Virus record (IMG/VR): IMGVR_UViG_3300020214_000115
Coordinates: 1 to 24,748 of that record
Strand: one strand, 5' to 3'
DNA: 24,748 nt
From: a virus
The position numbers and the translations under genes are program-made. The notes under the pieces were generated by a model. The model made no database searches and was not told the origin of the DNA. It saw nothing but the letters and a program-made list of their open reading frames with translations. This document shows, one piece after another, positions 4,349 through 24,585 of the stretch; the stretch's first letter is position 1; every line of letters begins with the position of its first letter.

Positions 4349-4350
4349 AA

Positions 4351-4802: not shown

Positions 4803-6655
4803 TGGCCGCAAATACTGCTATACCCGTAACGGGGTTGAATTATAACGAGATTCGCGCGAATTTGCGCGATTTCATATCGGCTAAGCCAGATTTTGCTGAC
4901 TTTGATTTTCAAGATTCTGCTCTGGGCACTCTACTCGATCTATTGGCATACAACACATATTATAATGCGTTCTATGCCAGCATGGCCGCGTCCGAGGCCT
5001 TTATTGATAGCGCACAGTTTTATGATAGCGTAGTTTCTCGCGCAAAGCTGGTAAATTACACACCAACTTCAGCACAGGGCGCTACGGCCAATGTTAGAAT
5101 ATCATTTGTGAATGCCGCGGTCAGTTCGTCACTTCTATCTATCAATATACCTAAAAACACAGAATTCACATCGACCATCAATAATATATCATATACTTTT
5201 GTGACTCCTCGGGCGTATACAGTTCTTGCCAATTCCAGCAACGGATTTGCAACTAATATCGATCTAGTTGAAGGTACACCACTAACGCATCGATATCTAT
5301 TTACCTCATCCAACACCGAATTTATACTTCCAAATTCGGACGTCGATACTCGTAGCATTTCTGTAACCGTCACAAGTTCGGGTAATACGTCTACGTATAC
5401 GTCCGTTAGCGATATTCTTACTATTAATTCATCGTCCAAAATATTCTATATCGAAGCAGATCGTGATTCTAAGTACAAGATCAGTTTCGGTGACGACGTT
5501 CTTGGAGATAAACCCGACTTTAATAGCACAGTAGCTATTTCATATCGCGTATGCAATGGCACTAGAGGTAATGGCGCTAACAATTTCACAACGGCAGGAA
5601 GTATCGATAATCAATCGGTATTCACTTTATCTGTAAATAATCGCGCAGTAGGCGGCTCTGGCCAAGAAGATATTGAATCCGTTCGATTTAATGCGCCCAA
5701 AAATTATGAGACTCAAAATCGAGCCGTTATTGCAGCCGATTATCAGCGTATCATTCTACGCGATAATAGGGATCTGCAGGCTGTCAATGTCTGGGGTGGT
5801 GAAGAAAATGATCCGCCCATTTATGGTAAAGTATATGCTTCAGTCAAGCCTATTGTTGGTACTCTAATATCTGCATCTCGCGCCGCTCAAATAAAAACAA
5901 ACATTCGTAAGTATAATGTGCAATCTATCGATTTGGAAATTGTTGATCCCACATTTGTATTCATTGAACCGACCATTACGGTAAATATGAACGTCGAAGC
6001 AACTACACTAACTGCATCGGAAATTGCGGCCCTTGTCGCAGCACGAGTAATTACATATGAGGGCACCAATCTCAATCGATTTGGTGGGCGATTTAGGTAT
6101 TCTAAATTTCTTAATTATCTGGATAATTCCGATATCGGTATTACCGGCTCTTCTGGTTCAGTGCAGCTACAGAAGCGATTCATACCATCGACAACCGTTA
6201 AAAATTCATATACATTCAATTTTAATCAGCGAATCGCAAATCACATGGGAGGAACTAATTCAGCCGTGTCAAGTAGTAGATTTACATTAAACGGCGAAGC
6301 TAATTCATTTATAGATGACGACGCTGAAGGTAATATTCGCACATACTATACTTCAGGTATCGATAAAATTTATACTAATGCTATAGCTGGGACAGTGAAT
6401 TATGACACGGGCAAAATCGTATTAAATGCTTTTATACCAACTGCATACGTAGGCAATCACATATCGATAAATGTAACCCCCACCACTCAGAATTTCGCGC
6501 CAATACGAAATCAGATATTGCTAATATCAGGAGCATCAATAAAAGTATTCGACGATGAGACGCAAAAGGAATTGGCAGCTATTACTAGTGTCAATACCAT
6601 TGGGAAATCTGCTAATGTTTCTGAGACCGGACTTGCTCCAGTGACGACGTACTAA
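4802..6655 (+). CDS. gp6: Baseplate wedge protein gp6 (gpJ-like)
   Basis: This is the main wedge subunit; dimers form the continuous ring around the hub that transmits the signal for sheath contraction. The 617 residues compare with 660 in T4. The N-terminus is diagnostic: GLNYNEIRANLRDFI followed by FADFDFQDSALGTLLDLLAY, with NTYYNAFYASMAASEAFIDS, as in gp6/gpJ proteins. Around residues 230-330 the gpJ-like core is visible (YKISFGDDVLG, then NRAVGGSGQEDIESVRFNAP and QNRAVIAADYQRIILRD). The C-terminal ~200 residues are beta-rich and less familiar, and may contact neighbouring wedges or fibres. It overlaps gp25 (TAATG) and ends one base before the next start. Confidence 0.92.
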   Translation: MAANTAIPVTGLNYNEIRANLRDFISAKPDFADFDFQDSALGTLLDLLAYNTYYNAFYASMAASEAFIDSAQFYDSVVSRAKLVNYTPTSAQGATANVRISFVNAAVSSSLLSINIPKNTEFTSTINNISYTFVTPRAYTVLANSSNGFATNIDLVEGTPLTHRYLFTSSNTEFILPNSDVDTRSISVTVTSSGNTSTYTSVSDILTINSSSKIFYIEADRDSKYKISFGDDVLGDKPDFNSTVAISYRVCNGTRGNGANNFTTAGSIDNQSVFTLSVNNRAVGGSGQEDIESVRFNAPKNYETQNRAVIAADYQRIILRDNRDLQAVNVWGGEENDPPIYGKVYASVKPIVGTLISASRAAQIKTNIRKYNVQSIDLEIVDPTFVFIEPTITVNMNVEATTLTASEIAALVAARVITYEGTNLNRFGGRFRYSKFLNYLDNSDIGITGSSGSVQLQKRFIPSTTVKNSYTFNFNQRIANHMGGTNSAVSSSRFTLNGEANSFIDDDAEGNIRTYYTSGIDKIYTNAIAGTVNYDTGKIVLNAFIPTAYVGNHISINVTPTTQNFAPIRNQILLISGASIKVFDDETQKELAAITSVNTIGKSANVSETGLAPVTTY

Positions 6656-6656
6656 C

Positions 6657-8798: not shown

Positions 8799-8810
8799 TT
8801 GATATTACGT
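8793..8810 (+). other. Small perfect inverted repeat over the stop of the gp7-position gene
   Basis: ACGTAAT (8793-8799) and ATTACGT (8804-8810) form a 7-bp perfect stem with a 4-base loop; the gene's TAA stop lies in the left arm. No U-tract follows, so it is not a canonical intrinsic terminator. It sits directly before TATAAATA and could be a weak transcript-end hairpin or chance. Confidence 0.35.
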
Positions 8811-8812
8811 CT

Positions 8813-8820
8813 TATAAATA
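8813..8820 (+). promoter_or_regulatory. T4-type late promoter TATAAATA
   Basis: TATAAATA at 8813-8820 matches the T4 late promoter core (read by the gp55 sigma-like factor) exactly. It lies in the 57-base gap before the small gene at 8856, giving a short leader with AAAGGG at about 8842-8847 as a possible ribosome site. Its position in one of the few intergenic gaps supports function. No such exact octamer was noticed before the other genes. Confidence 0.6.
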
Positions 8821-8855
8821 GTTAATATTTTAACTACTCATAAAGGGTTCGCTCA

Positions 8856-9443
8856 ATGACTATCGAAACTATCAAGGTAAGTGACATCAACTCAGCCAGT
8901 GTGACGCGCAACGCTCAGACAAGTGAATCCGTATCGGTACAGGGCGTATATAAGGCCGTGTGCTATGATGCGGAAGGAAAGATCAAGTGGGAAGATAACT
9001 TCCCTAATACCGTTACTACGGTAGGTAAGAATAATCTTCTTAACATTTATCTCGGGGCTAACTCCATTACGGCTGTTCCTGTCACCTGGTATCTTGGGCT
9101 TATCGTAGCAAATGGGTATTCTGGAATTTCCGCAGCGGATACTGCTGCATCACATGCTGGCTGGTTAGAATCTGGCGCTCAAGGCGGGGCTGCTCCCGGT
9201 TATAGCCAGGGTACCCGTCGAGCCGTCACTTTCTCCGCGGCCGCTTCTGGCGCAAAGGCCACATCTAATGCTGCAATCTTTTCAATTAGCTCAGCTGGTA
9301 CATTTAAGGGAGCTTTCCTGATAAACAATGCGACAAAGGCTGGCACAGGCGGTATTCTGTATTCGGCCGGGCTATTCACTGTCGGCGACAAGGTAGTTAC
9401 AGCATCGGATACACTAAATGTAACATACACGGCATCTGCTTAA
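8856..9443 (+). CDS. Small virion-associated protein of a widespread phage family
   Basis: The 195-residue product resembles a small structural protein I recognise from many unrelated tailed phages and prophages, whose exact role is not established. Seen here are VYKAVCYDAEGKIKWEDNFP, NTVTTVGKN (about residues 51-59), WYLGLI (78-83), AADTAASHAGWLE (93-105) and a beta-rich second half with FSISSAGTFKGAF and LNVTYTASA at the end. It is probably an all-beta decoration or fibre-associated protein. It is not part of the standard T4 gp7-gp8 order. It has flanking gaps (57 and 28 bases), its own TATAAATA, and GC-richer DNA than its neighbours (40 of 60 bases G+C at 9181-9240), all consistent with insertion as an independently expressed cassette. 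The first ~30 residues are Ser/Thr-rich and may attach it to the particle. Confidence 0.7.
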   Translation: MTIETIKVSDINSASVTRNAQTSESVSVQGVYKAVCYDAEGKIKWEDNFPNTVTTVGKNNLLNIYLGANSITAVPVTWYLGLIVANGYSGISAADTAASHAGWLESGAQGGAAPGYSQGTRRAVTFSAAASGAKATSNAAIFSISSAGTFKGAFLINNATKAGTGGILYSAGLFTVGDKVVTASDTLNVTYTASA

Positions 9444-9471
9444 TTTCATCAAATCATCATAGAGTATAGCT

Positions 9472-11061
9472 ATGCCTGGTATTATTACAAAACGATTTCG
9501 AATAAACAATGCCAAGCAATTTTTTGATGCAATAACTGCTGTCACAAAGAAATTATATATCTTCATCGGCCGCGTGACGCCTTATGCCAATGAAGCTGCG
9601 CCAACTACGCCAACCGATACATTTCAAAACACTCACTTTGATGGTTATCGCGACATGATTGCAATGAAACGAGTGCAGTCTTCCGACATATCGCAAGTAA
9701 TATCTAAATATTTATGGGCCAATAATACTGCTTATACTCAATATATCGACACCAGTGCGTCATTGTTTCCTACCTCAACATCAGTCTATTCGAATACTAC
9801 ATTCTACGTATTAACCGATGCTGATAACGTATATAAATGTATATACAATAATCGTGGTGGGCGATCAACCATAAAGCCTACTGGGACAAGTACGTCTATC
9901 ATAACTACAGCCGACAAATATCGCTGGAAATTTCTATACAACATAAGTGGAGCAGATAAAACTAAATTCTTTTCTACCTCATTTATTCCTGTAAAGACAC
10001 TAACAGCTAATAATGGAAGTGCTCAGTGGTCAGTTCAGCAGGCCGCATCAAATGGTGCAATACATAATATTCTAATTACAGCTAATGGAACAGGATATAT
10101 AACGACATCAAATACATTCTCGGCCGTATCAAATAGTACGACGATGGTGTTAAAGAATAATGCAAGTACTACCGATGACATTTATACACTATCGACTCTA
10201 TATATTTCTGCTGGATTAGGAGCTGGTCAGCTTCGTAAAATCGTGAACTATGTCGGATTAACCCGTACTGTAACAGTAAATACCGCTTTTACTCAAACAC
10301 CAAATACATCTTCTAGTTATATTGTAGGTCCAAACGTAATCATAAAAGGTGATTCTGGAGGCTCCAGCGCACAGCGCGCGACCGCATACGTTTCGAATGC
10401 TGCATTTGGGCAAATTCGAGATATCACGATGATAACCGAGGGTCTACACTATTCCACAGCTAACGTATCTATTTCGGCCAATTCATCTTATGGGTCAGGC
10501 TGTGTCGCCACACCAATAATATCGCCTAAGGGTGGGCACGGTAAAGATCCCGTACAAGAGCTTGGTGCAGTCAATGTTATGCTAAGTGTGCGCGTAACAG
10601 GAGCGGAATCCAATACATTTCCTACCAATAATGACTTTCGTATAATTGGTATAGTGAGCGATCCATTACTTCGTGGTGGCTCATCGGCTAATGCGTCAGT
10701 AATCGATCAGTGTAGCAGAATTACCGTCACGTCGCTTTCTGGCGATCTTACTTCCGATGAAATCATTACTGGTGGTACCAGCGGAGCTAAATCCAGGTTT
10801 GTACAATTTGCCAATACAAATAGTGCGCGAACAGCAGGTATAGTTCGTGTTATTCGAGTTGCCACAAATGGAACAGGTGGCACATATAGTGTAGGGGAAA
10901 CTGTCACTGGAAGTGTTTCGGGAAAAACTGCCACGGTAGCATCATTTACCAAGCCTGCCGTGAGAGAATTTACCGGAAACATCATATATACTGAGAACAG
11001 GACGTCTATCGCAAGAGCGCCCGAACAATTAGAGGACATTAAAATGGTTGTGAAATTCTAA
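9472..11061 (+). CDS. gp8: Baseplate wedge protein gp8 (extended form)
   Basis: gp8 dimers lie at the outer part of the wedge and link the gp6-gp7 core to gp10. The N-terminal ~200 residues carry the pattern of marine T4-like gp8: KQFFDAITAVTKKLYIFIGR, then DGYRDMIAMKRVQSSDIS, a YLWANNTAYTQY segment, and residues about 119-158 with VYKCIYNN, IKPTGTSTSIITTADKYRWK. T4 gp8 is 334 residues; this protein is 529 because of a beta-rich C-terminal extension with GTGY-type turns and Ser/Thr/Asn-rich strands, which may dock the giant protein that follows. The stop overlaps the next start as TAATG. The start at 9472 has only a weak ribosome site. Confidence 0.87.
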   Translation: MPGIITKRFRINNAKQFFDAITAVTKKLYIFIGRVTPYANEAAPTTPTDTFQNTHFDGYRDMIAMKRVQSSDISQVISKYLWANNTAYTQYIDTSASLFPTSTSVYSNTTFYVLTDADNVYKCIYNNRGGRSTIKPTGTSTSIITTADKYRWKFLYNISGADKTKFFSTSFIPVKTLTANNGSAQWSVQQAASNGAIHNILITANGTGYITTSNTFSAVSNSTTMVLKNNASTTDDIYTLSTLYISAGLGAGQLRKIVNYVGLTRTVTVNTAFTQTPNTSSSYIVGPNVIIKGDSGGSSAQRATAYVSNAAFGQIRDITMITEGLHYSTANVSISANSSYGSGCVATPIISPKGGHGKDPVQELGAVNVMLSVRVTGAESNTFPTNNDFRIIGIVSDPLLRGGSSANASVIDQCSRITVTSLSGDLTSDEIITGGTSGAKSRFVQFANTNSARTAGIVRVIRVATNGTGGTYSVGETVTGSVSGKTATVASFTKPAVREFTGNIIYTENRTSIARAPEQLEDIKMVVKF

Positions 11062-14000
11062 TGGCATCCATAGCAAATACCGCCACTCTCTCTACCAATC
11101 TGAATGTCGATCCTTACTATGATGATTTCAATGAGTCTAAGAATTTTCATCGAGTTCTGTTTAGACCGGGCTTGGCTGTGCAGGCGCGCGAGCTTACGCA
11201 GATGCAATCTATTCTTCAGAACCAGATTGATCGCTTCGCAGAGCATATATTCAAGGAAGGTAGCATCGTTCGTGGATGTGAACTAAATCTTGATCAGAGA
11301 TTTTATTATGTGAAGCTTCGCGATAAAAATTCTACAGGGTCTACGGTAAACGCGGCCGCGTTTTTAAATAAGACAGTTAAGGGAACAACGTCTGGTGTTC
11401 GTGCTATTGTTAATGCTACTACCGATGGCTCGCAAGCCAATACACCAAACTTTAAGTCATTATATGTAAAGTATACTGCCGCAAATACAAGTGGCGCAAA
11501 GTTTTTTGCTAATAATGAAATTCTAACAGCCACAGATGGATCAGGCATCACGGCCAATACAATTACGGCCGCTATGGGTGGCGCTACAGGTCACGGCAGT
11601 TCAATCACGATTGCCTCTGGTGTCGTGTTCGCGAAAGATCATTTCATTCGTGTCGATGAACAAACGCTAACTCTGGAGAGATATTCGGCTAATGCGACAT
11701 TCCGTATTGGTTTGGATATTAATGAGAGCATCGTATCCGACGTTGATGATACTACTCTACTCGATCCCGCAAGTGGCGCATTTAATTATGCTGCTCCAGG
11801 CGCAACTCGATTAAAGCTTGTGGCCACACTCGCCAAAAAAACAACTACAGAAAACACTGCGAATAATTTCATCGAACTTATGCAAATTAAGGGTGGTGTA
11901 GTTCAAAGTCAGTCCGACAAGCCTGAATATGCTGCAATCAAGGATTATATCGCTGGGCGTACATACGATGAATCGGGCAACTATATTGTTCACGGAATGA
12001 GTATTCGTCTGAGAGAACATCTATATAGTGCCAACAATCAAGGCACATTCACGGCCGCACAGGGCGGTAACACTAGTCTTATAACGATTGATATGCAGCC
12101 CGGCAAGGCTTACGTTCAGGGATATGATATTGAAACTTTAGTGACAAAACAACTTAATATTAAAAAAGGCATTGATTTTCAATCTCTAGAGCAGGTCAAG
12201 ACATTAATTGATTATGGTAATTACGTTATAGTCGATAACGTAGTTGGTGCATGGGATATCAATGGTCAGGATACAGTTACACTGCGCGGCCAACAGGCCA
12301 ATGCGATAAGCACTCGCTCATATTCGACAACCAATTATCCTGCTTCCTCCATTGGTACTGCCCGCGTGCGTGGGTTAGAATATTATTCGGGCACTCCTGG
12401 TCTTCCGTCCGCTCAATATAAGATGTATCTGACAGATATAAAAATGACGGCGGCCAACAAAAGTTTCGCTAATGTTCAATTTATTGGATTCTCAGCCGGT
12501 GGGTCAAGCGCGAACGGTAAAGCTGATATCGTTGGATCAAATGGACTTAATGCAAACACTACCGATCCCTCGTTCGATAGGGCAGTATTCAAGTTGCCCA
12601 CATTTGCAACGAAAAAACTACGTGATACATCAGGTAATATCGATACCGACTTTACCTTCTATAAATCATTCGATATATCGTTCGGTGCAACAGGCCAAGC
12701 CACTATAACTACGGGTGATAATTCGGAGCGTTTTGCCGGATCGGGCACATTAAGCGATTCCGCAACTAGGTCGAATTACTATATTATCTCACGGAGCTCG
12801 GCCAACACAAATACTCTCACCGGCACAGTAAGTGTAACGAGTGGTTCAAATACAGTAACTGGTTCTGGAACGGCATTTACAACGCAAGTAAACCCCGGCG
12901 ATCTGATTCGCATCGCTAATACTGGTACCACAAATTTTCTTGTGAGCGAAGTAACGAACGATACTTCACTGAAAGTGCTAAATGCTGCTGGTGTTACAAA
13001 GACGGGTATGCCGTTACACAAGAGATTTATACAGGGGCAAATTCTCGATCTTGGTGGCGTAGGTCGCGACGGCACGCGATCCATTACAGTTTCGGGTGCA
13101 CCCACGACTACTTCATTAATCGATTTAAATGAAACTCTTAATTCACCCTCAACGCTTACTGCTACTGCCATCGTCAAGCTTACCAAGGCGGATGGCCAAG
13201 AAGCAGCTAAAACTGTTGTTCGCGACAGATTAGTTCAGATTCGCATTGGTAATGCCGCTGCGGGAAATTCGTATGCAGGTAATACATCTGGACCATGGCC
13301 ACTAGGGCTATCCGATGGATTTAAACTTGTTTCGGTTCGCAAGCAAAGCGGAAGCAATTTCGCATCTGTATCTGCTGGGTCGGACGTAACGAATGACTTC
13401 ATTCTCGATAGCGGTATGCGCGATAACTTTTATGATCATGCCCGATTAGTTAAGAAGTCAGGTAGCGGTCTAACTATTTCTTCTGGTGATAGGCTTCTTG
13501 TTAAACTGGATCATTTCACTCATTCGTATTCGACAGGCGTAGGATATTTATCGGTAGATTCATATCCTGTAAACGATACAACGGCTGGATCAGATACGAC
13601 TAAAATCTTCACATATGAAATTCCCATATATACTTCGCCGTCAGATGGCAGGAGTTTTGATCTTCGCGATTCAATCGATGTACGACCACGCACGACTGAT
13701 ACTGCAAATAGCGTTACTACTCTGACTAATATATCGGTCAATCCATTGGTGTCAACATCATTCGATGAACCAAGTGGTGGTCTACATTTCTCTCCACCTC
13801 AAGAAGATTTGACGGCTGATCTTGACTATTATCTTGAGCGTAAGGATCTTATTGTTCTGGACAAGACTGGTTCGCTCCGTTCAATATCCGGTATGCCTTC
13901 ACTATTTCCACGCGCGCAGCCGGCGCCAGCCGAGGGCATTGTTCTGGCCGAAGTGAGTCTTGCTCCATATCCGTCACTTCCGTCTGAAATTGCGCGGCGA

Positions 14001-17000
14001 GTGGGCAGGCCTGATATGTCAAACGGTGTTTATCCTGTGAAGAATTCACGCTTTACAATGCGTGACATAGGCGTTATTAAGGATCGTGTAGACAATCTTG
14101 AATATTATACTTCTCTATCTCTTCTTGAAAACGATGCCAAGTCATTGATCGTTCAAGATGAAAATGGGCTAGATCGATTCAAGAACGGAATTTTAGTCGA
14201 TTCGTTTACCGGTCACAAGATCGGTAACGTATATGATTCCGATTACAAGATTGCAATCGATCCTTCGAAGGGTGAAGCTCGGCCTCCGTTTGCCATAAAC
14301 AACGTAGAACTATTTTACCATGCTGCGAATTCATCGAATGTCGTTCGCACAAATGTTACCGCCGATGGTATTTCTCGCGATCAGACAGTATTGATTAGTA
14401 ATTCACAAATTCTGTTCTCAAATAATGAAACTCTAACATCTGGTGCAAGCACGGCCAACCTTCGATATCAGGTAGACAACAAATTGTATATCGAAGCAGC
14501 TACCGGCAACTTTGCTGCGGCCGCTTCTGTAGTTGGCGGTACTAGCGGCAAAACAGCTACTATCAGTAGCACTATTACAACGACTGTTGGCGATCTGTTG
14601 ACTCTTCCATATACTCATGAAATTCTCGTAGATCAGAAATATGCAACTACTACTCGCAACGCGGCTGGAGCTTTCTACAATTGGGCTGGCGTGCTAGTTC
14701 TTGACCCAGCCGAAGATTATTGGGTAGATACGACGATTGCTCCTGCCGTTCAGGTTAATTTCGATTTAAATACAGATAATTGGTTGCATCTGGCCAATTC
14801 ATGGCAGACACAATGGGGCGCATGGAACACAGTATGGACAGGTACGAGACCTAGTGGAGCAACTTCGACTAGTACTTCAGGTGTATATGCGTCGGGCCAA
14901 CAGCTCCTGCAGGACTTCACCGTATCCAATGAAATGGTGACTACTACTGGCTTAAGCCGAACTGGTATCATACCAACAATTACAGTGCAGAATACAACAC
15001 AGTCTTTGGGTAATACTCTCCGTGATGTGAATCTACAGCCCTACATGCGCTCGCGTGTCATTCGATTTACAGCCCATGCAGTAAAGCCAAGCACACGATT
15101 ATACGCATTCTTCGATGGTACGAATGTGTCCAATTACGTGACGCCGACCAACTCTTCGTTTGCAAACACAGCAAACGAGGGCGGTATTCTAACAAGCGAT
15201 AGCACAGGCAGATTATACGGTATGTTCCGTATACCAAATGATAGCGCGCTTCGATTCAATACAGGATCGCGCAATCTGCGCTTTACGGATAATCCTTCGA
15301 ACGCTCAGAGTCTGGGGCTTCTTACAACTTCGGCCGAAGCTACATATACAGCCCAGGGTCTTTCTACTACAGCGCAAGACACAATTGTTGCGACAAGATA
15401 TCCTGTAATCTCTCAGACAACAACGACAGAGACGACAACTACGACAACAAGTAATTGGATTCAAGTCGGTGGCGGCACAAATGTTGTCGGCACTATACCT
15501 GATCCGGTGCCGATACAGGTCGCCGCGGCGACCATCGAAGTGGAGATTCCACCGTCGGCCCCCGTCGCGGAGGCCTTGGCGCCGGCGATCCCGACGGACG
15601 AGTCCGGCAACCCTCTACGGGTCAACAACGATCCCGGCGGTAATGCCGCCGCCGACATCGATCCCATATCCCAGACATTTCTTGTCAATACTGTGCAATC
15701 GTCCAGAATATCTGGCACAGGCGCGTTCATCACCAAAGTCGATCTATTCTTCTCGACAAAGGATCCGACTCTACCAGTCACCGTGGAAATTAGAGAAGTC
15801 GATCCGGTTACTGGGCATCAAACATTGCGTAGAGTTCCCTATGGTCAGGCTATTGTAGCATCGTCTCTTGTCAATACAAGCACCGATGGCAGCAAACCCA
15901 CACCGTTCTACTTCCCTTCGCCAGTATATCTTTTGAATAATCGTTCATATGCAATCGTAGTCATTCCCGGCGCAACAAATCCTAATTATCGTGTATTCAC
16001 GGCTCGAATTGGCGAAAACGATTTGCTGACGGGCAACAGAATTACAGCCCAGCCCGCATCCGGTACGATGTTTATTTCCTCAGATGATCGTACCTACAGC
16101 GCAGTTCAAGAAGAGGATATGAAGTATCGCCTGTATATGGCCAAATTTAACAAGTCCTTGGTTGGTAGTATTGTGGTCAAAAATGAAAATCGCGATTATC
16201 TGACTGTAGCAAATCAATCGGCCGCACTTCATAAGATTGGTGAACAAGTTCACGGGATAACTCTTCTTCATGGTACATTTGCAAATACAAAAACCCTAAG
16301 CGTTGCAAACAATACGACATTTGCACAGGGCATGGTATCTGGTGCCACTGGTATAGTTACCTCGTTTTCGGCCAACACGGTTACTGTTCGCGATGTTACC
16401 ACGGCTGTTAAATTCAAGGGCAAAGAGAGAATTCGTATACGTACAAACAACGCAACGAGCGGCGGTATTGTCGGTAATTCGACAGGCGTTATAATATCGG
16501 CCACTACTCCAATTGGCTTTGTTACCTACTACGATGCGGTGAACTACGCAAATACTCACCTGCATCTTTCTAACACATCATTTATAAACAGCGGTGCCGC
16601 GTGTACTTCCAATCGTATGTTCACGAACAATACATTTATACGTGGGCAGTCAAACGGATATACCGCACGAATCGTTGCAATGAATAGACTTCAGGGAGAT
16701 ATATTTAAGTTTACAACTGATTATCTACAACCATCAAATACTACTATCTCTTCAAGTGCCAAGATGGCTTTATCTAACTCGTCACGCGATACGTCATATG
16801 TCTCTATCAATATTAATGAAGACACCGAACTGAATGTGCCTCGCTTTATTCTATCGCGGTCAGTAGAGTCTAATACCAGTGCCAGTAGTAGTTCATTCGC
16901 ATCATCTCGGTCGGCCGAGTTCAAAATCGCGATTAAGTCTACTAGCGATTTGTCAAGCCCGGCCTTTGATTTGCGCCGTACTTCACTTTGCCTGATAGAA

Positions 17001-17513
17001 AATCTTATCAACTCCAATAATGCTATTGGGTCAAGTGAAGACGGCATTAAGACTGGCGGTAATGCAAAGGCTAAATATATTAGCCGGCGCGTAACACTGG
17101 CTGATGGACAAGATGCCGAAGACCTTCGTGTATATGTAACAGCATATAAGCCAAGTGGCGCAGGAGTGCATGTTTATTATAAGGCTCTGAATAGAGAAGA
17201 CAGCGATACTTTCTCTGATTCTAGCTGGATACCAATGACTCCTGTAACAGACGCTGGTTTCACAAGCACTGCGCGGTATTCATCCAGTGAGGATACAGAG
17301 GATTTTCTAGAGCTGGCCTATAAGATAGATTCATATTCAAATACACACAAGTCAGGAGCCAATACGACAAGTGGTATTATGGAATATCGCAATACACTGG
17401 GCGCACGATATACGGGCTTCAAGTATTTCGCAATCAAGATTGTTCTAACGCATACTACAAGCACACGGCCGCCACGTATTCGCGATTTCCGCGCAATCGC
17501 ACTACAGATTTAA
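11061..17513 (+). CDS. Giant DUF4815-type baseplate/fibre-connector protein (gp10-like)
   Basis: At 2150 residues this is the largest gene here. It is of the DUF4815 kind found after gp8 in marine T4-like phages, often named gp10, and probably forms the peripheral structure joining wedge and fibres. Seen: residues about 15-60, DPYYDDFNESKNFHRVLFRP and VQARELTQMQSILQNQIDRF; about 310-380, AGRTYDESGNYIVHGMSIRL and MQPGKAYVQGYDIE; about 930-1060, LDYYLERKDLIVLDKTG, FTMRDIGVIKDRVDNLEYYT and LVDSFTGHKIGNVYDSDYKI. A second conserved block starts near residue 1532 (DPISQTFLVN, then ITKVDLFFSTKDPTLPVTVE). The C-terminal ~500 residues are beta-rich with a final strand block similar to jelly-roll receptor-side domains. 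The linker at about 1480-1530 is encoded by a GC-rich patch (15500-15665). Product and position are confident; the exact role is by family. Confidence 0.85.
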   Translation: MASIANTATLSTNLNVDPYYDDFNESKNFHRVLFRPGLAVQARELTQMQSILQNQIDRFAEHIFKEGSIVRGCELNLDQRFYYVKLRDKNSTGSTVNAAAFLNKTVKGTTSGVRAIVNATTDGSQANTPNFKSLYVKYTAANTSGAKFFANNEILTATDGSGITANTITAAMGGATGHGSSITIASGVVFAKDHFIRVDEQTLTLERYSANATFRIGLDINESIVSDVDDTTLLDPASGAFNYAAPGATRLKLVATLAKKTTTENTANNFIELMQIKGGVVQSQSDKPEYAAIKDYIAGRTYDESGNYIVHGMSIRLREHLYSANNQGTFTAAQGGNTSLITIDMQPGKAYVQGYDIETLVTKQLNIKKGIDFQSLEQVKTLIDYGNYVIVDNVVGAWDINGQDTVTLRGQQANAISTRSYSTTNYPASSIGTARVRGLEYYSGTPGLPSAQYKMYLTDIKMTAANKSFANVQFIGFSAGGSSANGKADIVGSNGLNANTTDPSFDRAVFKLPTFATKKLRDTSGNIDTDFTFYKSFDISFGATGQATITTGDNSERFAGSGTLSDSATRSNYYIISRSSANTNTLTGTVSVTSGSNTVTGSGTAFTTQVNPGDLIRIANTGTTNFLVSEVTNDTSLKVLNAAGVTKTGMPLHKRFIQGQILDLGGVGRDGTRSITVSGAPTTTSLIDLNETLNSPSTLTATAIVKLTKADGQEAAKTVVRDRLVQIRIGNAAAGNSYAGNTSGPWPLGLSDGFKLVSVRKQSGSNFASVSAGSDVTNDFILDSGMRDNFYDHARLVKKSGSGLTISSGDRLLVKLDHFTHSYSTGVGYLSVDSYPVNDTTAGSDTTKIFTYEIPIYTSPSDGRSFDLRDSIDVRPRTTDTANSVTTLTNISVNPLVSTSFDEPSGGLHFSPPQEDLTADLDYYLERKDLIVLDKTGSLRSISGMPSLFPRAQPAPAEGIVLAEVSLAPYPSLPSEIARRVGRPDMSNGVYPVKNSRFTMRDIGVIKDRVDNLEYYTSLSLLENDAKSLIVQDENGLDRFKNGILVDSFTGHKIGNVYDSDYKIAIDPSKGEARPPFAINNVELFYHAANSSNVVRTNVTADGISRDQTVLISNSQILFSNNETLTSGASTANLRYQVDNKLYIEAATGNFAAAASVVGGTSGKTATISSTITTTVGDLLTLPYTHEILVDQKYATTTRNAAGAFYNWAGVLVLDPAEDYWVDTTIAPAVQVNFDLNTDNWLHLANSWQTQWGAWNTVWTGTRPSGATSTSTSGVYASGQQLLQDFTVSNEMVTTTGLSRTGIIPTITVQNTTQSLGNTLRDVNLQPYMRSRVIRFTAHAVKPSTRLYAFFDGTNVSNYVTPTNSSFANTANEGGILTSDSTGRLYGMFRIPNDSALRFNTGSRNLRFTDNPSNAQSLGLLTTSAEATYTAQGLSTTAQDTIVATRYPVISQTTTTETTTTTTSNWIQVGGGTNVVGTIPDPVPIQVAAATIEVEIPPSAPVAEALAPAIPTDESGNPLRVNNDPGGNAAADIDPISQTFLVNTVQSSRISGTGAFITKVDLFFSTKDPTLPVTVEIREVDPVTGHQTLRRVPYGQAIVASSLVNTSTDGSKPTPFYFPSPVYLLNNRSYAIVVIPGATNPNYRVFTARIGENDLLTGNRITAQPASGTMFISSDDRTYSAVQEEDMKYRLYMAKFNKSLVGSIVVKNENRDYLTVANQSAALHKIGEQVHGITLLHGTFANTKTLSVANNTTFAQGMVSGATGIVTSFSANTVTVRDVTTAVKFKGKERIRIRTNNATSGGIVGNSTGVIISATTPIGFVTYYDAVNYANTHLHLSNTSFINSGAACTSNRMFTNNTFIRGQSNGYTARIVAMNRLQGDIFKFTTDYLQPSNTTISSSAKMALSNSSRDTSYVSININEDTELNVPRFILSRSVESNTSASSSSFASSRSAEFKIAIKSTSDLSSPAFDLRRTSLCLIENLINSNNAIGSSEDGIKTGGNAKAKYISRRVTLADGQDAEDLRVYVTAYKPSGAGVHVYYKALNREDSDTFSDSSWIPMTPVTDAGFTSTARYSSSEDTEDFLELAYKIDSYSNTHKSGANTTSGIMEYRNTLGARYTGFKYFAIKIVLTHTTSTRPPRIRDFRAIALQI
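15500..15665 (+). other. GC-rich island inside the DUF4815 gene
   Basis: Within an otherwise AT-rich gene, about 165 bases jump to high G+C: 45 of 60 bases at 15541-15600, against 24 of 60 at 15361-15420. The stretch codes a Pro/Ala/Glu linker (VEIPPSAPVAEALAPAIPTD) between the beta-rich middle and the conserved DPISQTFLVN block. Codons there end mostly in C or G, unlike the rest of the gene. Boundaries are by eye. Confidence 0.7.
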
Positions 17514-17514
17514 C

Positions 17515-17730
17515 ATGTATACAAAAGTGAAAGATGCGCCTGGTTTTGTTCGAGGAGAAAACTCCGCTATATTATCGACAGATGTGGCGAGTTTAACTTC
17601 ATATAAAAAACGGCGCGATCAGCTTAATGAAATGAGAGCTGCTGTACATGATATAAATAACATGAAGATAGAATTAAATGAAATAAAATCCATGTTGCAA
17701 ACAATTATCGGAAAAATACAAAATGGCTAA
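17515..17730 (+). CDS. Small coiled-coil protein between giant connector and fibres
   Basis: The 71-residue product starts MYTKVKDAPGFVRGENSAIL and ends with a strongly helical heptad-like segment (residues about 30-68: hydrophobic I, L and M spaced between charged residues, for example MKIELNEIKSMLQTIIGKI). The N-terminal pattern KVKD-x-PGFVR-x-x-x-x-AIL-x-TD resembles short conserved proteins in structural clusters of T4-like marine phages; their function is unknown to me. It starts one base after the giant gene and overlaps the first fibre gene by eight bases, so it is probably translated with them. It may be a fibre attachment or assembly factor. Expression is likely; function is a guess. 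Confidence 0.6.
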   Translation: MYTKVKDAPGFVRGENSAILSTDVASLTSYKKRRDQLNEMRAAVHDINNMKIELNEIKSMLQTIIGKIQNG

Positions 17731-18847
17731 AATTGCCAACGTAGCATTGACCAATACATTTGATACATGGCGTATTACGTCAAATAAAGCATTTGATCGG
17801 CTAAGTCAGTTTGCAATAAACAATTCATCGCTATATGCAAATACAGTTACAGCTAATAACAACCTCAATGCATTAAAAAATGCCACGATTACAAAGAATC
17901 TAACTGTATCTGGTAATACATCCACTAATAAAGCAACTGTTACATCATCATTAACTGTATCTGGTAATACAACATTAGGCGCTGCTGGTAAGACGATTAC
18001 ATCTACCGGTGTTCTAGCTCATACTGGCAATCTAACTGTATCAGGCAATACATCCACTAATAAAGCAACTGTTACATCATCATTAACTGTATCTGGTAAT
18101 ACAACATTAGGCGCTGCTGGTAAGACGATTACATCTACCGGTGTTCTAGCTCATACTGGCAATCTAACTGTATCAGGCAATACATCCACTAATAAAGCAA
18201 CTGTTACATCATCATTAACTGTATCTGGTAATACAACATTAGGCGCTGCTGGTAAGACGATTACATCCACAGGTGCTGCTGCTCATACTGGCACTAAAAC
18301 AATATCAACAAATCTAACAGTATCTGGTAATACATCCACCAATAAAGCAACTGTTACATCGGCTCTAACAGTATCAGGTAATACAACATTAGGTGCTGCT
18401 GCTAAAACAATTACAACGACTGGTCTTCTGGGCCATACTGGTCGAGCCACTATTAGTACGAATCTAACTGTATCTGGTAATACGACGCTGGGTGCTGCGG
18501 GTAAGACAATTACAACGACAGGTGATCTATCCCACACCGGTGATATTACTGCATCTGGTGATATCACATCGAATTCGGATCTGGCATTTAAGTCTAACGT
18601 CGAAATAATTACCAATGCTCTCGACAAATTAAGTAACATCAAAGGTATTACATTCAATAGCGATGGTGTTTTGCGCCGTCGGACAGGAGTTATAGCTCAG
18701 GACGTACAGACGGTGTTGCCCGAAGCTATTCATACTAATTCCGATGGTCATCTATCTGTTGCATATGGCAATATGATCGGACTTTTAGTGGAAGCCATCA
18801 AGGAACTGGATAAAAAAATCAAGAATATTACTGAATCAAATGGATAA
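17723..18847 (+). CDS. Tail fibre A with S74 (endosialidase-type) intramolecular chaperone
   Basis: This is the first of three paralogous fibre proteins. Residues 1-55 are the shared N-terminal domain (RLSQFAINNSSLYANTVTAN, NNLNALKNATITKN), presumably the virion attachment part. Residues about 58-280 are Thr/Ser/Gly-rich repeats (LTVSGNTTLGAAGKTITSTG) forming a long beta-structured shaft, including three nearly identical 44-residue units. Residues about 284-374 are a peptidase S74 domain: SDLAFKSNVEIITNALDKL, then GVIAQDVQTVLPEAI and a C-terminal helix LLVEAIKELDKKIKNITES. In this family the chaperone trimerises the fibre and cleaves itself off at the Ser that begins the domain, here S285 (base 18575). 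No enzyme domain for host polysaccharide is visible. It overlaps the previous gene by eight bases. Confidence 0.9.
   Translation: MAKIANVALTNTFDTWRITSNKAFDRLSQFAINNSSLYANTVTANNNLNALKNATITKNLTVSGNTSTNKATVTSSLTVSGNTTLGAAGKTITSTGVLAHTGNLTVSGNTSTNKATVTSSLTVSGNTTLGAAGKTITSTGVLAHTGNLTVSGNTSTNKATVTSSLTVSGNTTLGAAGKTITSTGAAAHTGTKTISTNLTVSGNTSTNKATVTSALTVSGNTTLGAAAKTITTTGLLGHTGRATISTNLTVSGNTTLGAAGKTITTTGDLSHTGDITASGDITSNSDLAFKSNVEIITNALDKLSNIKGITFNSDGVLRRRTGVIAQDVQTVLPEAIHTNSDGHLSVAYGNMIGLLVEAIKELDKKIKNITESNG
17897..18292 (+). repeat. Three 132-bp tandem repeats in fibre A
   Basis: Units start at 17897, 18029 and 18161, each coding 44 residues. Units 1 and 2 are nearly identical, differing for example by TCTGGT versus TCAGGC; unit 3 diverges only near its end (GTTCTA replaced by GCTGCT). 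Further diverged copies follow to about 18540. Parts of the unit recur in fibres B and C, so this DNA is a strong substrate for homologous recombination. Confidence 0.95.
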
Positions 18848-18855
18848 AACGAATA

Positions 18856-20595
18856 ATGGCCAAGATTGCAAACGTTGAAACATCAGATACTTTTTCAATA
18901 TGGCGAATTCGGTCGAACGCGGCATTTGATCGGCTGAGTCAGTTTGCAATAAACAATTCATTGCTATATGCAAATACAGTTACGGCTAATAACAACCTCA
19001 ATGCATTGAAAAATGCCACGATTACAAAGAATCTAACTGTATCTGGTAATACAACATTAGGCGCTGCTGGTAAGACGATTACATCCACAGGTGTTCTAGC
19101 TCACACTGGTAATCTAACTATATCTGGTAATACGACATTTAGTAATCCCATAACTTACGGCGGCGTCACGCTCAGCAACTCCGTCACCGGCACTGGGAGC
19201 ATGGTACTTGCAACTGCTTTAACATCAACCAATACAGCACTTCGTACACTAATTGCGGATAGATTGCAGGTTGCTAATGCCGCAGCAATCTATCAGACTA
19301 AAGCAATTGAACGAGCTGCGTTGGCGAATACAAACGCATCGATATCAAATGTTAAAACTGGTTTAACATCAACCAATACAGCACTTCGTACACTAATTGC
19401 GGATAGATTGCAGGTTGCCAATGCCGCTACAATATATCAGACTAAATCAATTGAACGAGCCGCGTTGGCGAATACAAACGCATCGATATCAAATGTTAAA
19501 ACTGGTTTAACATCAACCAATACTGCGCTTCGGACTCTTATATCAGATAACACCTTCGGCTACAAGAACCGCATCATCAATGGCGACATGCGCATCGACC
19601 AGCGCAATGCCGGCGCGACCAAGCAAATCACCGCAACCAACGACTACACTACAGACCGCTGGCGGGCCATCGCCACGGGCGCCGGCCGCATGGACTTCGC
19701 GCGTTCGACCTCGACACCGCCGACTGGGTTCTCGCATTTTTTGCGGATGACTGTGGGCGTCGCCGACAACTCGCTCACGAGCACTGACGAGTATTTCATC
19801 TCGCAGCGTATCGAAGGCTTCAATATCGCAGATTTGTTGTTCGGGTCGGCCAGCGCCAAAGCCGTTACGTTGTCATTCTGGGTGCGTTCAAGCCTCACCG
19901 GAGCGTTCTCTGGCGCACTTCGCAACGCGGCCGGAGGCGCGCTCAACCGCTCCTATCCGTTCTCGTACACCATCAGCGCGGCGAGCACCTGGGAGCAAAA
20001 GACCGTCACTTTGACGGCTGACACTTCCGGTACGTGGACAACCGACGCGAGTATTGGCGTTGAGGTGTGCTTCTGCGTAGGCGCGGCAACGGGTCAACTT
20101 GGGACAGCCAATGCTTGGACAGGACCCACCGCTGTATCCGGTGTTACCGGCACAACCAATGTCATGGCGACCGTTTCAAACACCTTTGACCTCACCGGCG
20201 TCCAGCTGGAGAAGGGCACCGTCGCGACCGGCTTCGATGTCCGCTCGCATCAGCAGGAGCTGGCGCTTTGCCAGCGCTACTTCTGCAAGACCTTCCCGGT
20301 CGGCACCGCTCCGGTCACCGGGGCGAGCAGCATCGGCTGCTTGTCGCAGAACGGCCGTGAACTGCTCTTGTCCTTCACCAAGGACTGGCGTTTTCCGGTG
20401 ACCATGCGCGCCAGCCCGACGGTGACGACCTATTCGCTCGATGCCGGGCAGACCTACTGGAAGGGCTATATGCTCGGGAGTACCGCGACATCAAACGTGA
20501 CCAATTCCGGCGACCTGGCCTGCCTGCTGACCGGCACGAACCAGAACGGCCTCGACCTCTTCATCATCCACGCAACGGCAGCGGCGGAGCTGTGA
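18856..20595 (+). CDS. Tail fibre B with GC-rich prophage-type adhesin C-terminus
   Basis: Residues 1-110 repeat the fibre A N-terminus and shaft (RLSQFAINNSLLYANTVTAN, LTVSGNTTLGAAGKTITSTG). Then comes FSNPITYGGVTLSNSVTGTG, a motif common in prophage fibres. Residues 122-217 are two 48-residue repeats (LTSTNTALRTLIADRLQVAN, then IYQTKAIERAALANTN), probably a trimeric coiled-coil shaft. From residue 234 the protein changes completely: GYKNRIINGDMRIDQRNAG, YTTDRW, and QLEKGTVATGFDVRSHQQEL with LALCQRYFCKTF. This module is one I recognise from many proteobacterial phages and prophages, thought to be a beta-sandwich receptor- or carbohydrate-binding domain. The DNA switches at about 19552 from AT-rich to about 67% G+C (40 of 60 bases at 20221-20280). 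An assembly-chaperone-like gene follows immediately. Confidence 0.87.
   Translation: MAKIANVETSDTFSIWRIRSNAAFDRLSQFAINNSLLYANTVTANNNLNALKNATITKNLTVSGNTTLGAAGKTITSTGVLAHTGNLTISGNTTFSNPITYGGVTLSNSVTGTGSMVLATALTSTNTALRTLIADRLQVANAAAIYQTKAIERAALANTNASISNVKTGLTSTNTALRTLIADRLQVANAATIYQTKSIERAALANTNASISNVKTGLTSTNTALRTLISDNTFGYKNRIINGDMRIDQRNAGATKQITATNDYTTDRWRAIATGAGRMDFARSTSTPPTGFSHFLRMTVGVADNSLTSTDEYFISQRIEGFNIADLLFGSASAKAVTLSFWVRSSLTGAFSGALRNAAGGALNRSYPFSYTISAASTWEQKTVTLTADTSGTWTTDASIGVEVCFCVGAATGQLGTANAWTGPTAVSGVTGTTNVMATVSNTFDLTGVQLEKGTVATGFDVRSHQQELALCQRYFCKTFPVGTAPVTGASSIGCLSQNGRELLLSFTKDWRFPVTMRASPTVTTYSLDAGQTYWKGYMLGSTATSNVTNSGDLACLLTGTNQNGLDLFIIHATAAAEL
19218..19547 (+). repeat. 144-bp tandem repeats in fibre B
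   Basis: Two full 144-bp units start at 19218 and 19362, and a partial third runs from 19506 to about 19547. Each full unit codes 48 residues beginning LTSTNTALRTLIADRLQVAN. The GC-rich module begins right after the partial third unit. The same unit occurs in fibre C. Confidence 0.93.
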
Positions 20596-20998
20596 CCATG
20601 TACCAGGCAGTGAATACAGCGATGATCCGCCGCCTGTCCGATGGCGCATTCATCCCGATCGACGAGGCCAACGCCGACTATCGGCAGTACCTCGCCTGGG
20701 CGGAGCAGGGCAACAGGCTGCAGCAGGCCGATCAGCCAAGTGCCGCAGAACTCAACGCACCGATCCTCATGGAGCTTGCCGCCCGCGACGCCAAGGTCAT
20801 TCGGGCGCTGGTGGAGGGCGACACCGTGCGGATCGAGGCGCACAAAGCGAAACAGGCCGAGCTGCGCGCCCGGCTGGTGACGCCATGACGCCGGCGCGAT
20901 CGGACGACCTCGATGCCTATGCCATTGCGGTTGAGGCGCGGGAGCGGTCCGCGCCACCCACGTGCGAAATCATCGACGTGGACGAATTCGGCGACCCA
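19552..20998 (+). other. GC-rich cassette II (adhesin module plus chaperone-like gene)
   Basis: The segment covers the C-terminal two thirds of fibre B, the 96-residue gene at 20598, and the first ~38 codons of the 54-residue ORF at 20885. It is clearly GC-richer than the flanks and uses G/C-ending codons. Both ends are abrupt: the left follows a 144-bp repeat remnant, and the right lies within the small ORF near 20998, where AT-rich sequence (GAACTAAATAGTC and on) resumes. Likely acquired from a GC-rich prophage or host. Confidence 0.75.
20598..20888 (+). CDS. Tail fibre assembly chaperone-like protein
   Basis: The 96-residue product follows the fibre B stop directly. It has MIRRLSDGAFIPIDEANADY followed by RQYLAWAEQGN, a pattern (IRR-x-x-DGAFIP-x-D-x-AN-x-DY-x-x-YLAW) I associate with small tail-assembly or fibre-assembly proteins beside prophage adhesin genes. 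It probably assists folding or trimerisation of the matching C-terminus. I chose ATG 20598, which has GGAG at 20586-20589 eight bases upstream; GTG 20592 would add two residues but has no comparable site. The second half is helical and alanine-rich (ELAARDAKVIRALVEGDTV, KAKQAELRARL). The DNA is GC-rich like the fibre B tip, so both probably arrived together. Confidence 0.7.
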   Translation: MYQAVNTAMIRRLSDGAFIPIDEANADYRQYLAWAEQGNRLQQADQPSAAELNAPILMELAARDAKVIRALVEGDTVRIEAHKAKQAELRARLVTP

Positions 20999-21049
20999 AT
21001 TACTGAACTAAATAGTCTAGAATTATTTACTAAAAATATAGAAAGTTAA
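20885..21049 (+). CDS. 54-residue chimeric small ORF at the right end of cassette II
   Basis: This ORF starts inside the previous stop (ATGA) and codes 54 residues. The first ~38 codons are GC-rich (MTPARSDDLDAYAIAVEARE, then PPTCEIIDVDEFGD) and the last ~16 are AT-rich (ITELNSLELFTKNIES). The break at about 20998 is where cassette II meets phage backbone, so the ORF looks like a fusion made by recombination. The GC-rich part could be the start of a small prophage gene; the AT-rich part could be the end of an older phage gene. Coupled translation is plausible, but a functional product is uncertain. A CTAAATA motif lies in its 3' part (21008-21014). Confidence 0.4.
   Translation: MTPARSDDLDAYAIAVEARERSAPPTCEIIDVDEFGDPITELNSLELFTKNIES
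21008..21014 (+). promoter_or_regulatory. CTAAATA motif upstream of fibre C
   Basis: CTAAATA lies 42 bases before the fibre C start in the context GAACTAAATAGTC. The same GAACTAAATAG occurs upstream of gp25 (4349-4359). It could be a late-promoter-like element giving fibre C its own transcript. Function is inferred from motif recurrence and placement only. Confidence 0.35.
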
Positions 21050-21056
21050 ATGAAAT

Positions 21057-22322
21057 ATGGCCAAGATCGCAAACGTTGAAACATCAGATACTTTTGGAAT
21101 ATGGCGAATCCGTTCGAACGCGTCGTTTGATCGGCTAAGTCAGTTTGCAATAAACAATTCATTGCTATATGCAAATACAGTTACAGCTAATAACAACCTC
21201 AATGCATTGAAAAATGCCACGATTACAAAGAATTTACTTGTATCGGGCAATACGACATTAGGTGCTGCCGGTAAGACAATTACATCCACAGGTGTTCTAG
21301 CTCATACTGGTAATCTAACTGTATCGGGCAATACATCCACTAATAAAGCAACTGTTACATCGGCCCTAACAGTATCAGGCAATACGACATTTAGTAATCC
21401 CATAACTTACGGCGGCGTCACGCTCAGCAACTCCGTCACCGGCACTGGTAGCATGGTACTTGCAACTGCTTTAACGTCAACCAATACTGCGCTTCGTACA
21501 CTAATTGCGGATAGATTGCAGGTTGCCAATGCTGCTACAATATATCAGACTAAAGCAATTGAACGTGCGGCCCTTGCTAACACAAACGCATCGATATCAA
21601 ATGTTAAAACTGGTTTAACATCAACCAATACTGCGCTTCGGACACTAATTGCGGATAGATTGCAGGTTGCTAATGCCGCTCTTGGATCGCTGATTGGCTT
21701 ACAGGTCTTTACCGGCACCAGCACCTGGACGAAGCCGTCCAATCCATCGCCAACGTCCGTTGTCGTCTGGGTTACTGGCGGAGGCGGCGGTGGCGGCGGC
21801 GCGATCCTCTCCACGAATGGTACCGGCGGCGGCGCCGGCGGCACGGCAATCAAGCGGATCACCAGTGGCCTTGGGGCAACGGAAACGGTCACGGTTGGCG
21901 GGCCCGGGACAGGGGGCCTCAATTACGGCGCCGATAACAATGGCACCGCCGGCGGTACATCGAGCTTCGGCTCCCATTGCTCCGCCACAGGCGGCACGGG
22001 TGGCGCCGGCTCGACCCACGGCTTGCCTCACTTTCCACTCACGGCGAGCAAGGGCGGCCTCGGCGTGGGCGGCAACATCAATATAAACGGCGGCGACGGG
22101 GCCTGGGCTGCGCAAGTCGGGAGTGCGGCCGCACTGGTCGGCGGACATGGCGGCGCCAGCTATTGGGGCGGCGGAGGCCGCGGCGGCGGCGATGGCCATC
22201 CCGGGCCCGCATCTCAGGGGTACGCCGGCAAGGCCCATGGCAGTGGCGGTGGCGGCGCCCAGGGCCATGGCGTAGCCGGCGATGGTACGGTCGGTATCGT
22301 GGTCGTATGGGAGTACAGGTGA
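21057..22322 (+). CDS. Tail fibre C with glycine-rich adhesin C-terminus
   Basis: Residues 1-55 are again the shared attachment domain. The shaft then has LTVSGNTSTNKATVTSALTV, the TYGGVTLSNSVTGTGSM motif, and the 48-residue repeat from residue 139 with a partial second copy from 187. From about residue 216 a glycine-rich module follows: QVFTGTSTWTKPSNPSPTSV, VVVWVTGGGGGGGG, and many GG-rich loops to the end, VGIVVVWEYR. The family pattern (QVFT-x-x-x-TWTKP, then V-x-V-x-GGGGGG) is common in phage adhesins; the crystallised phage S16 gp38 adhesin tip uses polyglycine-II helices of similar composition. Variable loops between such helices bind receptors, so this is a probable receptor-binding tip. 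The module is GC-rich (47 of 60 bases at 22141-22200). A chaperone-like gene overlaps its stop (TGATG). Confidence 0.88.
   Translation: MAKIANVETSDTFGIWRIRSNASFDRLSQFAINNSLLYANTVTANNNLNALKNATITKNLLVSGNTTLGAAGKTITSTGVLAHTGNLTVSGNTSTNKATVTSALTVSGNTTFSNPITYGGVTLSNSVTGTGSMVLATALTSTNTALRTLIADRLQVANAATIYQTKAIERAALANTNASISNVKTGLTSTNTALRTLIADRLQVANAALGSLIGLQVFTGTSTWTKPSNPSPTSVVVWVTGGGGGGGGAILSTNGTGGGAGGTAIKRITSGLGATETVTVGGPGTGGLNYGADNNGTAGGTSSFGSHCSATGGTGGAGSTHGLPHFPLTASKGGLGVGGNININGGDGAWAAQVGSAAALVGGHGGASYWGGGGRGGGDGHPGPASQGYAGKAHGSGGGGAQGHGVAGDGTVGIVVVWEYR
21470..21684 (+). repeat. 144-bp repeat (one full, one partial copy) in fibre C
   Basis: A full unit starts at 21470 and a partial copy at 21614, both nearly identical to the fibre B units at 19218 and 19362. 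The partial copy ends where the foreign C-terminus begins, as in fibre B. Confidence 0.9.
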
Positions 22323-22690
22323 TGGCCCGATTTGCTCGCGTCGAAGGCGGCGTGGTCCGCGAAATCTTGGTGGCCGACAAGCTGCCGCCATTTCATCCGG
22401 AAATCGCGGCGCAGTTCATCGCAGTCGCCGACGATGTGCTGGAGGGGTGGCACCGGAGCGGGGATGCGCTGGTGCCGCCACCGCCGCCGCCCGCTCCAAC
22501 CTATCGCGAGCTTCGCGCGGCCGCCTACCGCGATGAGATGGGCCGGGAAACCGAAGACTCCATCAAGACTATCGGCGACGTGCTCGACACGCTGCTCGGC
22601 TGGGCCGCCGGTGAGATCGCCGCCGGACGCGCCCAGGCCACGCCCGAGATCGAGACGATGTTGACCAAGCGCGCTGAAATCAAAGACCGA
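21700..22690 (+). other. GC-rich cassette III (glycine-rich tip plus chaperone-like gene)
   Basis: From about 21700 to about 22690 composition is very GC-rich, then returns to AT-rich inside the C-terminus of the gene at 22322. It contains the fibre C tip and most of the following chaperone-like gene. It mirrors cassette II: shared shaft, foreign tip, small assembly gene, right junction inside an ORF. Boundaries are by eye. Confidence 0.75.
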
Positions 22691-22780
22691 ATTCCTATCG
22701 ATATTAATTGGTCCGCTCCGCCGGCAAGAGTCATTAAAGAGTTAAAGACTGAAATAGAAAAATTGAAAAATGACAACTAA
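22322..22780 (+). CDS. Tail assembly chaperone-like protein with a phage-type C-terminal tail
   Basis: The 152-residue product starts at ATG 22322, overlapping the fibre C stop (TGATG). A longer reading upstream in this frame is only a shadow of the fibre gene. [40 protein letters not shown], a [20 protein letters not shown] linker and [16 protein letters not shown] match the pattern of small prophage tail-assembly proteins next to adhesin genes, so it probably helps fold the glycine-rich tip. The last ~20 residues ([16 protein letters not shown]) are AT-rich in DNA and resemble the final helix of the S74 domain of fibre A (AIKELDKKIKNITESNG), suggesting the cassette replaced most of an older S74 fibre end. 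The collagen-like gene starts 11 bases before its end. Confidence 0.72.
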
Positions 22781-22841
22781 GATAAGTTCTTCCGGTATAA
22801 CATTCAATAATTCTACAGTTCAAGCGACAGCTACTGGTCCT

Positions 22842-23880
<1,039 letters not shown>

Positions 23881-23886
<6 letters not shown>

Positions 23887-24585
23887 TTGAAAAATAGAAA
23901 TTCTAAAACTTTCTACACTGACTATGAAATTAAAAATATACCAGATGGAATGGCACATTCAGATAGAGTTTTAAGATATGCTTCATATTATATTATAGAA
24001 GATTTTTTGACCGATGATATTCTCAAAGAAGTAACTAATTTCACTGAAAAGAAACACAATAGTCTTATTAAAGGATCAGTTATTGGTTATACTCATCAAG
24101 AAGCTGAACAAAATAATATGCGTGATTCGAGCATTCACTTTATGGAAGATGTTGAGTTTGAGAAGTATAATGACTACATAGCTAATAAAGTATCTGAAAT
24201 CAATAAGAATATTTTTAATCTTGATCTAAGTTGTTTTATGACACCTCAGTATGCCGTATATGGTAAAGGACAACATTTTAATTGGCATCCAGATGGACCG
24301 CTTGGCGTCCTGGATCGTAGAGGATTAAATTGCATTCCTGATTATCTTGCATGGAGAAAGCTGTCCACGTCAATTGCTCTTAACGATGAGTCTGAATATA
24401 CGGGTGGTGATTTTCAAATTATTGATCCATCTGCTAATCCGTCTTGTTCAATTGTAAATACAATTAGAATGGCTAAGGGAACAGCCATTTTATTTCCAGC
24501 ATTTAGTGCTCATCGTGTTTCACCAGTAATTGATGGTACAAGAAAATCATTAATTTATTGGTTCTGTGGTCCAAGATGGAGATAA
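23881..24585 (+). CDS. 2OG-Fe(II) oxygenase, PKHD/prolyl-hydroxylase-like
   Basis: The 234-residue product is a non-haem dioxygenase of the 2-oxoglutarate/Fe(II) superfamily, which hydroxylates a substrate while decarboxylating 2-oxoglutarate. The metal triad is visible: H136 and D138 in QHFNWHPDGP and distal H211 in FPAFSAHRVSPVIDGT, with R221 ten residues later as the expected 2-oxoglutarate ligand (GTRKSLIYWF). The N-terminus has YYIIEDFLTDDILKEVTNF, the usual first helix of this family. Related genes are common in T4-like marine phages, with unknown substrates. Here the gene follows three collagen-like genes, so Pro (or another residue) in those rods is an attractive but unproven target. 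The ribosome site GGAG lies in a duplicated leader. The DNA is more AT-rich than the fibre genes. Confidence 0.88.

Follow-up and report, generated by a model that had tools for sequence, protein, structure and literature searches.

The GC-rich block at positions 19552-20998 of the analysed virus DNA is very probably an imported host-recognition module, namely an extra fibre unit that carries a foreign tip and partner gene within an array of three fibres. The analysed DNA, referred to as the window, is the complete virus record IMGVR_UViG_3300020214_000115 (24,748 bp) of an uncultured virus of bacteria. In the proposed course of events, a complete extra fibre unit would have been inserted at 18855-20997, between fibre A and the spacer in front of the next fibre. 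The stem of this unit would be of the phage's own kind, and DNA from a GC-rich source would start within the third linker repeat, comprising a CBM-like tip, a small partner gene and the truncated start of a third gene, which now ends in the phage spacer.

Genome context and fibre array

The left part of the window encodes a T4-superfamily contractile-tail baseplate with gp5 (OB and trimerisation domains), gp25, gp6 and gp8, and the window is a fragment of a T4-superfamily myophage. Its 2150-aa VrlC-like protein is nearest to phages of Ochrobactrum, Rhizobium, Pelagibacter and Sinorhizobium. Two shorter rises in GC content to about 53% were observed at 2751-3500, inside a 520-aa gene of the baseplate region, and at 15251-16000, inside the VrlC-like gene. 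Downstream of the baseplate, three fibres with one common N-terminal stem are encoded on the plus strand, A (17723-18847), B (18856-20595) and C (21057-22322). The array is followed at 22770-24585 by three collagen-like genes (Gly-Pro-Thr repeat) and an adjoining 2OG-Fe(II) oxygenase (PF13640, E=2.7e-12), which has the fold of prolyl hydroxylases. Judged by this gene order, the collagen-like fibres might be hydroxylated by the phage's own oxygenase.

After the shared stem, fibre A comprises repeats and a C-terminus of the Peptidase_S74 type, an endosialidase-type intramolecular chaperone (PF13884, E=6.4e-11), and it was found at the same place in the relatives L144 and L145. Its length is 374 aa in the window compared to 330 aa in contig L009 (4105-5097), which is otherwise nearly identical; the difference equals one 132-bp repeat unit and can be explained by copy-number variation or by an assembly collapse.

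Fibre C (PF21722, E=3.8e-9) is by position the counterpart of the relatives' second fibre, and its stem is 94.7% identical to the second fibre of L144 (5.3% difference). From 21712 on (breakpoint interval 21702-21718) it continues as a glycine-rich tip of about 70% GC, which is joined inside the same type of linker repeat as the tip of fibre B, after a partial second repeat copy. The following 152-aa gene (22322-22780, plus strand) is GC-rich to about 22646-22678 and then AT-rich, and its position suggests that it is probably the partner of the fibre C tip; a search for relatives of this gene found none. Its last approximately 30 codons are AT-rich, and the end of the protein looks slightly like the end of S74-type fibres. 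The fibre C tip and the 152-aa gene (21712-22780) make up another cassette, laid out like that of fibre B.

Composition step and its boundaries

The stem of fibre B (18856-19551, plus strand) starts with the shared N-terminus (MAKIANVETSDTF..) and is AT-rich with a phage-type composition (GC3 31.5%). Homologues of the stem were found in 54 viral loci, and sister phages bear other tips on the same stem. One sister phage (L157, 9001-10062) shows a different tip with a GC step of its own, 61% compared to 42% for the contig. In another (L039, 10001-14409), the stem fibre is followed by two genes with RCC1-like repeats (DGTLWSWGxNxxGQLGDNT) of 59% and 50% GC, between which a 239-aa gene is located. 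Within fibre B, linker repeats of 144 bp (48 aa) were detected on the plus strand at 19212-19549, with two full copies at 19212-19499 and a partial third copy at 19500-19549, where the self-similarity at an offset of 144 bp stops.

Maximum-likelihood segmentation showed a change in GC content from 41.4% to 63.1% and back to 39.5% across the fibre B block, with a left breakpoint at 19582 (2-log-unit interval 19549-19599) and a right breakpoint at 20997 (20962-21003). Both are consistent with the limits of 19552 and 20998 that a preliminary description had set from the letters alone. Since the repeat similarity stops at 19549, the GC step comes after the partial third repeat, directly behind the remnant where it had been placed before, and the GC-rich tip joins inside the third linker repeat. 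At the other end, the step falls within a composite 54-aa ORF (20885-21049, plus strand), again as described earlier, with 38 foreign codons of GC3 76% followed by 16 phage spacer codons (20999-21046) of GC3 0%. This ORF was rejected as an independent gene, because tblastn against the loci collected found no relatives except in a contig of the same population and its end is spacer. Its sequence rather points to the truncated head of a foreign third gene, the frame of which would read through the phage spacer.

The GC-rich block comprises 62.7% GC compared to at most 49.3% in any 1447-bp stretch of positions 1-17700. The GC3 of the tip (78%) and of the 96-aa partner (82%) contrasts with 24-39% in the phage genes measured, and the synonymous-codon score of the tip is -0.187, about 9 s.d. 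lower than the 0.070 +/- 0.029 determined for 347-codon windows of phage genes. The codon use is thus unlike that of the phage, which bears out the earlier impression of unadapted codons. For 165 related tips (duplicates removed), tip GC tracks contig GC with r=0.82 (mean difference -2.4, s.d. 4.4), and homologues in AT-rich contigs have about 35-52% GC. The excess of the window tip over its own phage (+18.6 points) is the most extreme of all 166, the next being +10.5. Since homologous tips match the GC of their own contig, the composition step is not a family property. The preliminary description had counted the same step in homologues of other phages as evidence against a capture, and such a step is absent.

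Probable insertion site, empty in related phages

The complete fibre B unit (18855-20997, plus strand) is absent in two relatives. The first, represented by L030, L144 and L296, shares 96.7% identity with the window in 7 kb of baseplate genes, while the second, represented by L145 and L292, is 89.7% identical in the baseplate genes (L145 compared to L296: 88.6%). In both, an AT-rich spacer of about 60 bp is all that separates the stop of fibre A from the start of the next fibre. In the window, this ancestral intergenic spacer is located at 20998-21056, and it is non-coding in L144 and L145. The edges of the unit are marked by '..ACGAATA' after the fibre A stop on the left and by 'ATTACTGAACTAAAT..' of the ancestral spacer on the right. 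A DNA pattern search with the spacer gave the relatives already known as sole matches to the window. The contigs of both relatives end inside the next fibre; the empty site is established at this locus, and a fibre B unit may lie elsewhere in their genomes.

Since fibre A is directly joined to the spacer and the next fibre in the relatives, the whole fibre B unit, including its AT-rich stem, was probably inserted. The same spacer is non-coding in the relatives, and accordingly the last, AT-rich codons of the 54-aa ORF belong to the phage's own spacer. With L145 as outgroup, a gain in the lineage of the window is the simplest history. The acquisition had earlier been called recent, and relative to strain divergence this is supported by the site being empty in two relatives. 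For the moved unit, which had been described as tip plus partner, the pairing of both holds true, but at the level of the locus the unit also includes the AT-rich stem of fibre B.

The stems of fibres B and C show 93.2% identity over 190 bp (6.8% difference). Being about 7% apart, they show that fibre B did not arise very recently as a tandem copy; the stem of fibre B would rather be an older copy or would have arrived with a related phage, the difference between B and C being similar to the 5.3% between C and L144. The unit may have been inserted and its tip captured in separate steps, the tip possibly before the unit arrived at this site. The left joint could originate from recombination in the linker repeats, a route that fibre C would also have used for its GC-rich tip, while the right joint could originate from illegitimate joining, cutting the third gene.

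The relatives' junction could also be given by a deletion, if fibre B with its GC-rich tip were old in the lineage and had been lost in both relatives, and just two relatives span the site. However, the arrangement without fibre B is common to the outgroup L145 and the sister L144, so that two independent deletions with the same endpoint would be required, and the composition of the block has not drifted toward that of the phage, which makes an ancestral presence improbable. An assembly chimera, in which the repeats would have linked the window phage to a GC-rich one, is very unlikely. The fibre stems are repetitive and the contigs of the relatives break there, but contig L009, though possibly from the same population, shows no mismatch to the window over 18334-22210, both junctions included; moreover, the reading frame is continuous across the left junction, and the spacer that holds the right junction is single-copy. 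Hardly credible is a native tip that is GC-rich through its protein composition, without foreign origin: tip and partner are Ala- and Gly-rich, but neither their GC3 compared to the phage genes nor the lower GC of homologues in AT-rich contigs agrees with this explanation. Altogether, the import of a fibre unit with foreign tip and partner is the preferred reading.

Fibre B tip and its partner gene

The GC-rich tip of fibre B comprises residues 233-579 (347 aa; 19552-20595, plus strand). While a Pfam search with the tip gave no match, the structure model (pLDDT 87.6) showed a jelly-roll, CBM4/11/16-like adhesin domain and a second beta domain. Foldseek related the tip to a CBM4-2-derived module (E=2.4e-6) and to CBM4, CBM11 and CBM16 in general (E of about 1e-6 to 1e-4, TM (target) of about 0.55-0.64). 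The ends of phage tail fibres were matched as well, with E values as low as 1.5e-34 and a TMq of 0.90, and many phage tail fibres end in this fold. The tip is thus predicted to share the jelly-roll fold of the CBM4, CBM11 and CBM16 modules, although the identity to them is about 10-16%.

The tip is followed by a gene of 96 aa (20598-20888, plus strand), a probable fibre-assembly chaperone or cap according to its linkage to the tip, its match to phrog_20370 and its model. Members of this partner family were found at most 600 bp downstream in 195 of 210 related tips, but in none of 126 control segments, and this recurrent pair substantiates the previous view of adhesin tip and chaperone-like gene as one unit. 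The family core follows the consensus MYxLxxxxxVxRLxDNAFIPFDPANTDYQxYLxWLAEGNTPxPAD. In the model of the window partner, a conserved 45-aa beta-alpha core is extended by a long C-terminal helix, while the relatives comprise mostly 45-60 aa and most of them are without the helix region. The C-terminal half of the window partner is similar to the gene that follows the fibre in L198, a phage with 62% GC, which was the one distant match in a single-protein scan besides a contig of the same population.

The window partner matches phrog_20370 (E=1.3e-9), annotated as of unknown function, and the family also matches phrog_34019, annotated likewise. Searches of the window partner against Pfam and NCBIfam gave no match, a fold search returned nothing significant, and sequence searches of the PDB gave no significant match. 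Characterised chaperone families (PF16778, DUF4376, Tfa and gp38 types) were matched by the window partner neither by sequence nor by fold. The phage tail assembly chaperone domain PF16778 matches 2 of 32 partner relatives, which supports a role in fibre assembly. The position downstream of a fibre fits the term chaperone used in the preliminary description, but matches of the window protein to curated families and folds are absent. The inferred role of the partner is to fold or cap the tip while the fibre is assembled.

In a Polynucleobacter contig (L062), three consecutive tip copies were observed with a partner-like frame downstream of each. It is a tentative suggestion that the partner core of 45-60 aa is a widespread minimal partner, dedicated to CBM-like tips in phages of many types, and that tip-partner cassettes, several of which the phage would keep behind one type of stem, can be exchanged as a receptor array through recombination in the 144-bp linker repeats. 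In the assembled virion, the stem would dock the fibre to the baseplate and the trimeric tip would bind a cell-surface glycan. Several receptor specificities are probably available to the phage through its three fibres, and three tips would widen or hedge its host range.

Probable origin of the foreign DNA

A nucleotide search with 19552-21000 against 50,697 phage records gave no match. At the protein level, relatives of the tip were found in at least 580 viral contigs compared to 12 contigs of GTDB genomes. The closest tip proteins in viral contigs showed an identity of about 47-57%, the best one in GTDB genomes 49%, and a plasmid protein search gave four weak matches with 44% at best. Donor candidates did not exceed about 57% identity, so that direction and date of the capture can be given only tentatively.

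The preliminary description had pointed to alphaproteobacterial genomes or prophages, from which a high-identity match ending at both junctions was to be expected. Such a match was not obtained: the best identity was about 57% in viral contigs and 41% among 397 genomes of one alphaproteobacterial order. A capture from this source, which would leave the import itself unchanged and only replace the donor, is consistent with the baseplate genes, which have their nearest counterparts in phages of Ochrobactrum, Rhizobium and Sinorhizobium, and with some weak tip homologues in alphaproteobacteria. Nevertheless it is unlikely, since the partner was present in only 2 of 385 genomes of the alphaproteobacterial class and the tip family occurs mainly in viral contigs. 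Most likely, the imported module came from a different phage whose genome is GC-rich, and not from a bacterium.

Comparison with known systems

Modular receptor-binding proteins and the exchange of tail-fibre and assembly genes are known from T-even phages, P2, Mu and lambda. The window represents a clean natural record of the gain of such a receptor-binding module, in which both joints, the empty site and the donor-type composition are legible, and suggests that the unit of exchange is a tip with its small partner. Through it, a small gene that is very common but unannotated (phrog_20370/phrog_34019) can be connected in a testable way with one kind of fibre tip of aquatic phages. The worth of the case lies in the resolved junctions, the empty site, the array of three tips and the near-constant unannotated partner gene.

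In the Alteromonas phages A5, V22 and P24, fibre and downstream chaperone gene form one module common to unrelated phages (PMC10579305), and the V22 fibre requires its chaperone for cell binding (PMC7289586). This unit of fibre plus helper gene corresponds to fibre B and its partner. The Alteromonas chaperones comprise 195-239 aa with a C-terminal DUF4376 domain, and the fibres bear lectin-like heads (PMC10579305, PMC7289586), whereas the window partner comprises 96 aa without a DUF4376 match. Unlike in the Alteromonas case, both junctions and an empty site can be seen here, and fibre B has two paralogues beside it.

For the lake myocyanophage Pam3, the complex of the fibre gp24 and its chaperone gp25 has been solved; the downstream chaperone holds the tip with an N-terminal beta domain and has a C-terminal helical domain (PMC9608196). 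The glycine-rich fibre tip of Pam3 resembles that of fibre C, while gp25 and the window partner share a likeness of layout only, as no sequence or fold match was found.

The depolymerases of Klebsiella phages are modular receptor-binding proteins as well (PMC6872550, PMC8262889). As in the window, modular receptor-binding proteins combine a conserved N-terminal anchor with a swapped C-terminal specificity module, often together with a helper gene. One stem with different C-terminal ends, the predicted specificity domains, was found in fibres A, B and C and in the sister phages, tip and helper gene travel together, and the composition step and the empty site indicate horizontal exchange at this locus. 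The case is thus a modular receptor-binding exchange of an already known kind, which differs from the known systems in the protein families involved and in the joint inside a 144-bp linker repeat.
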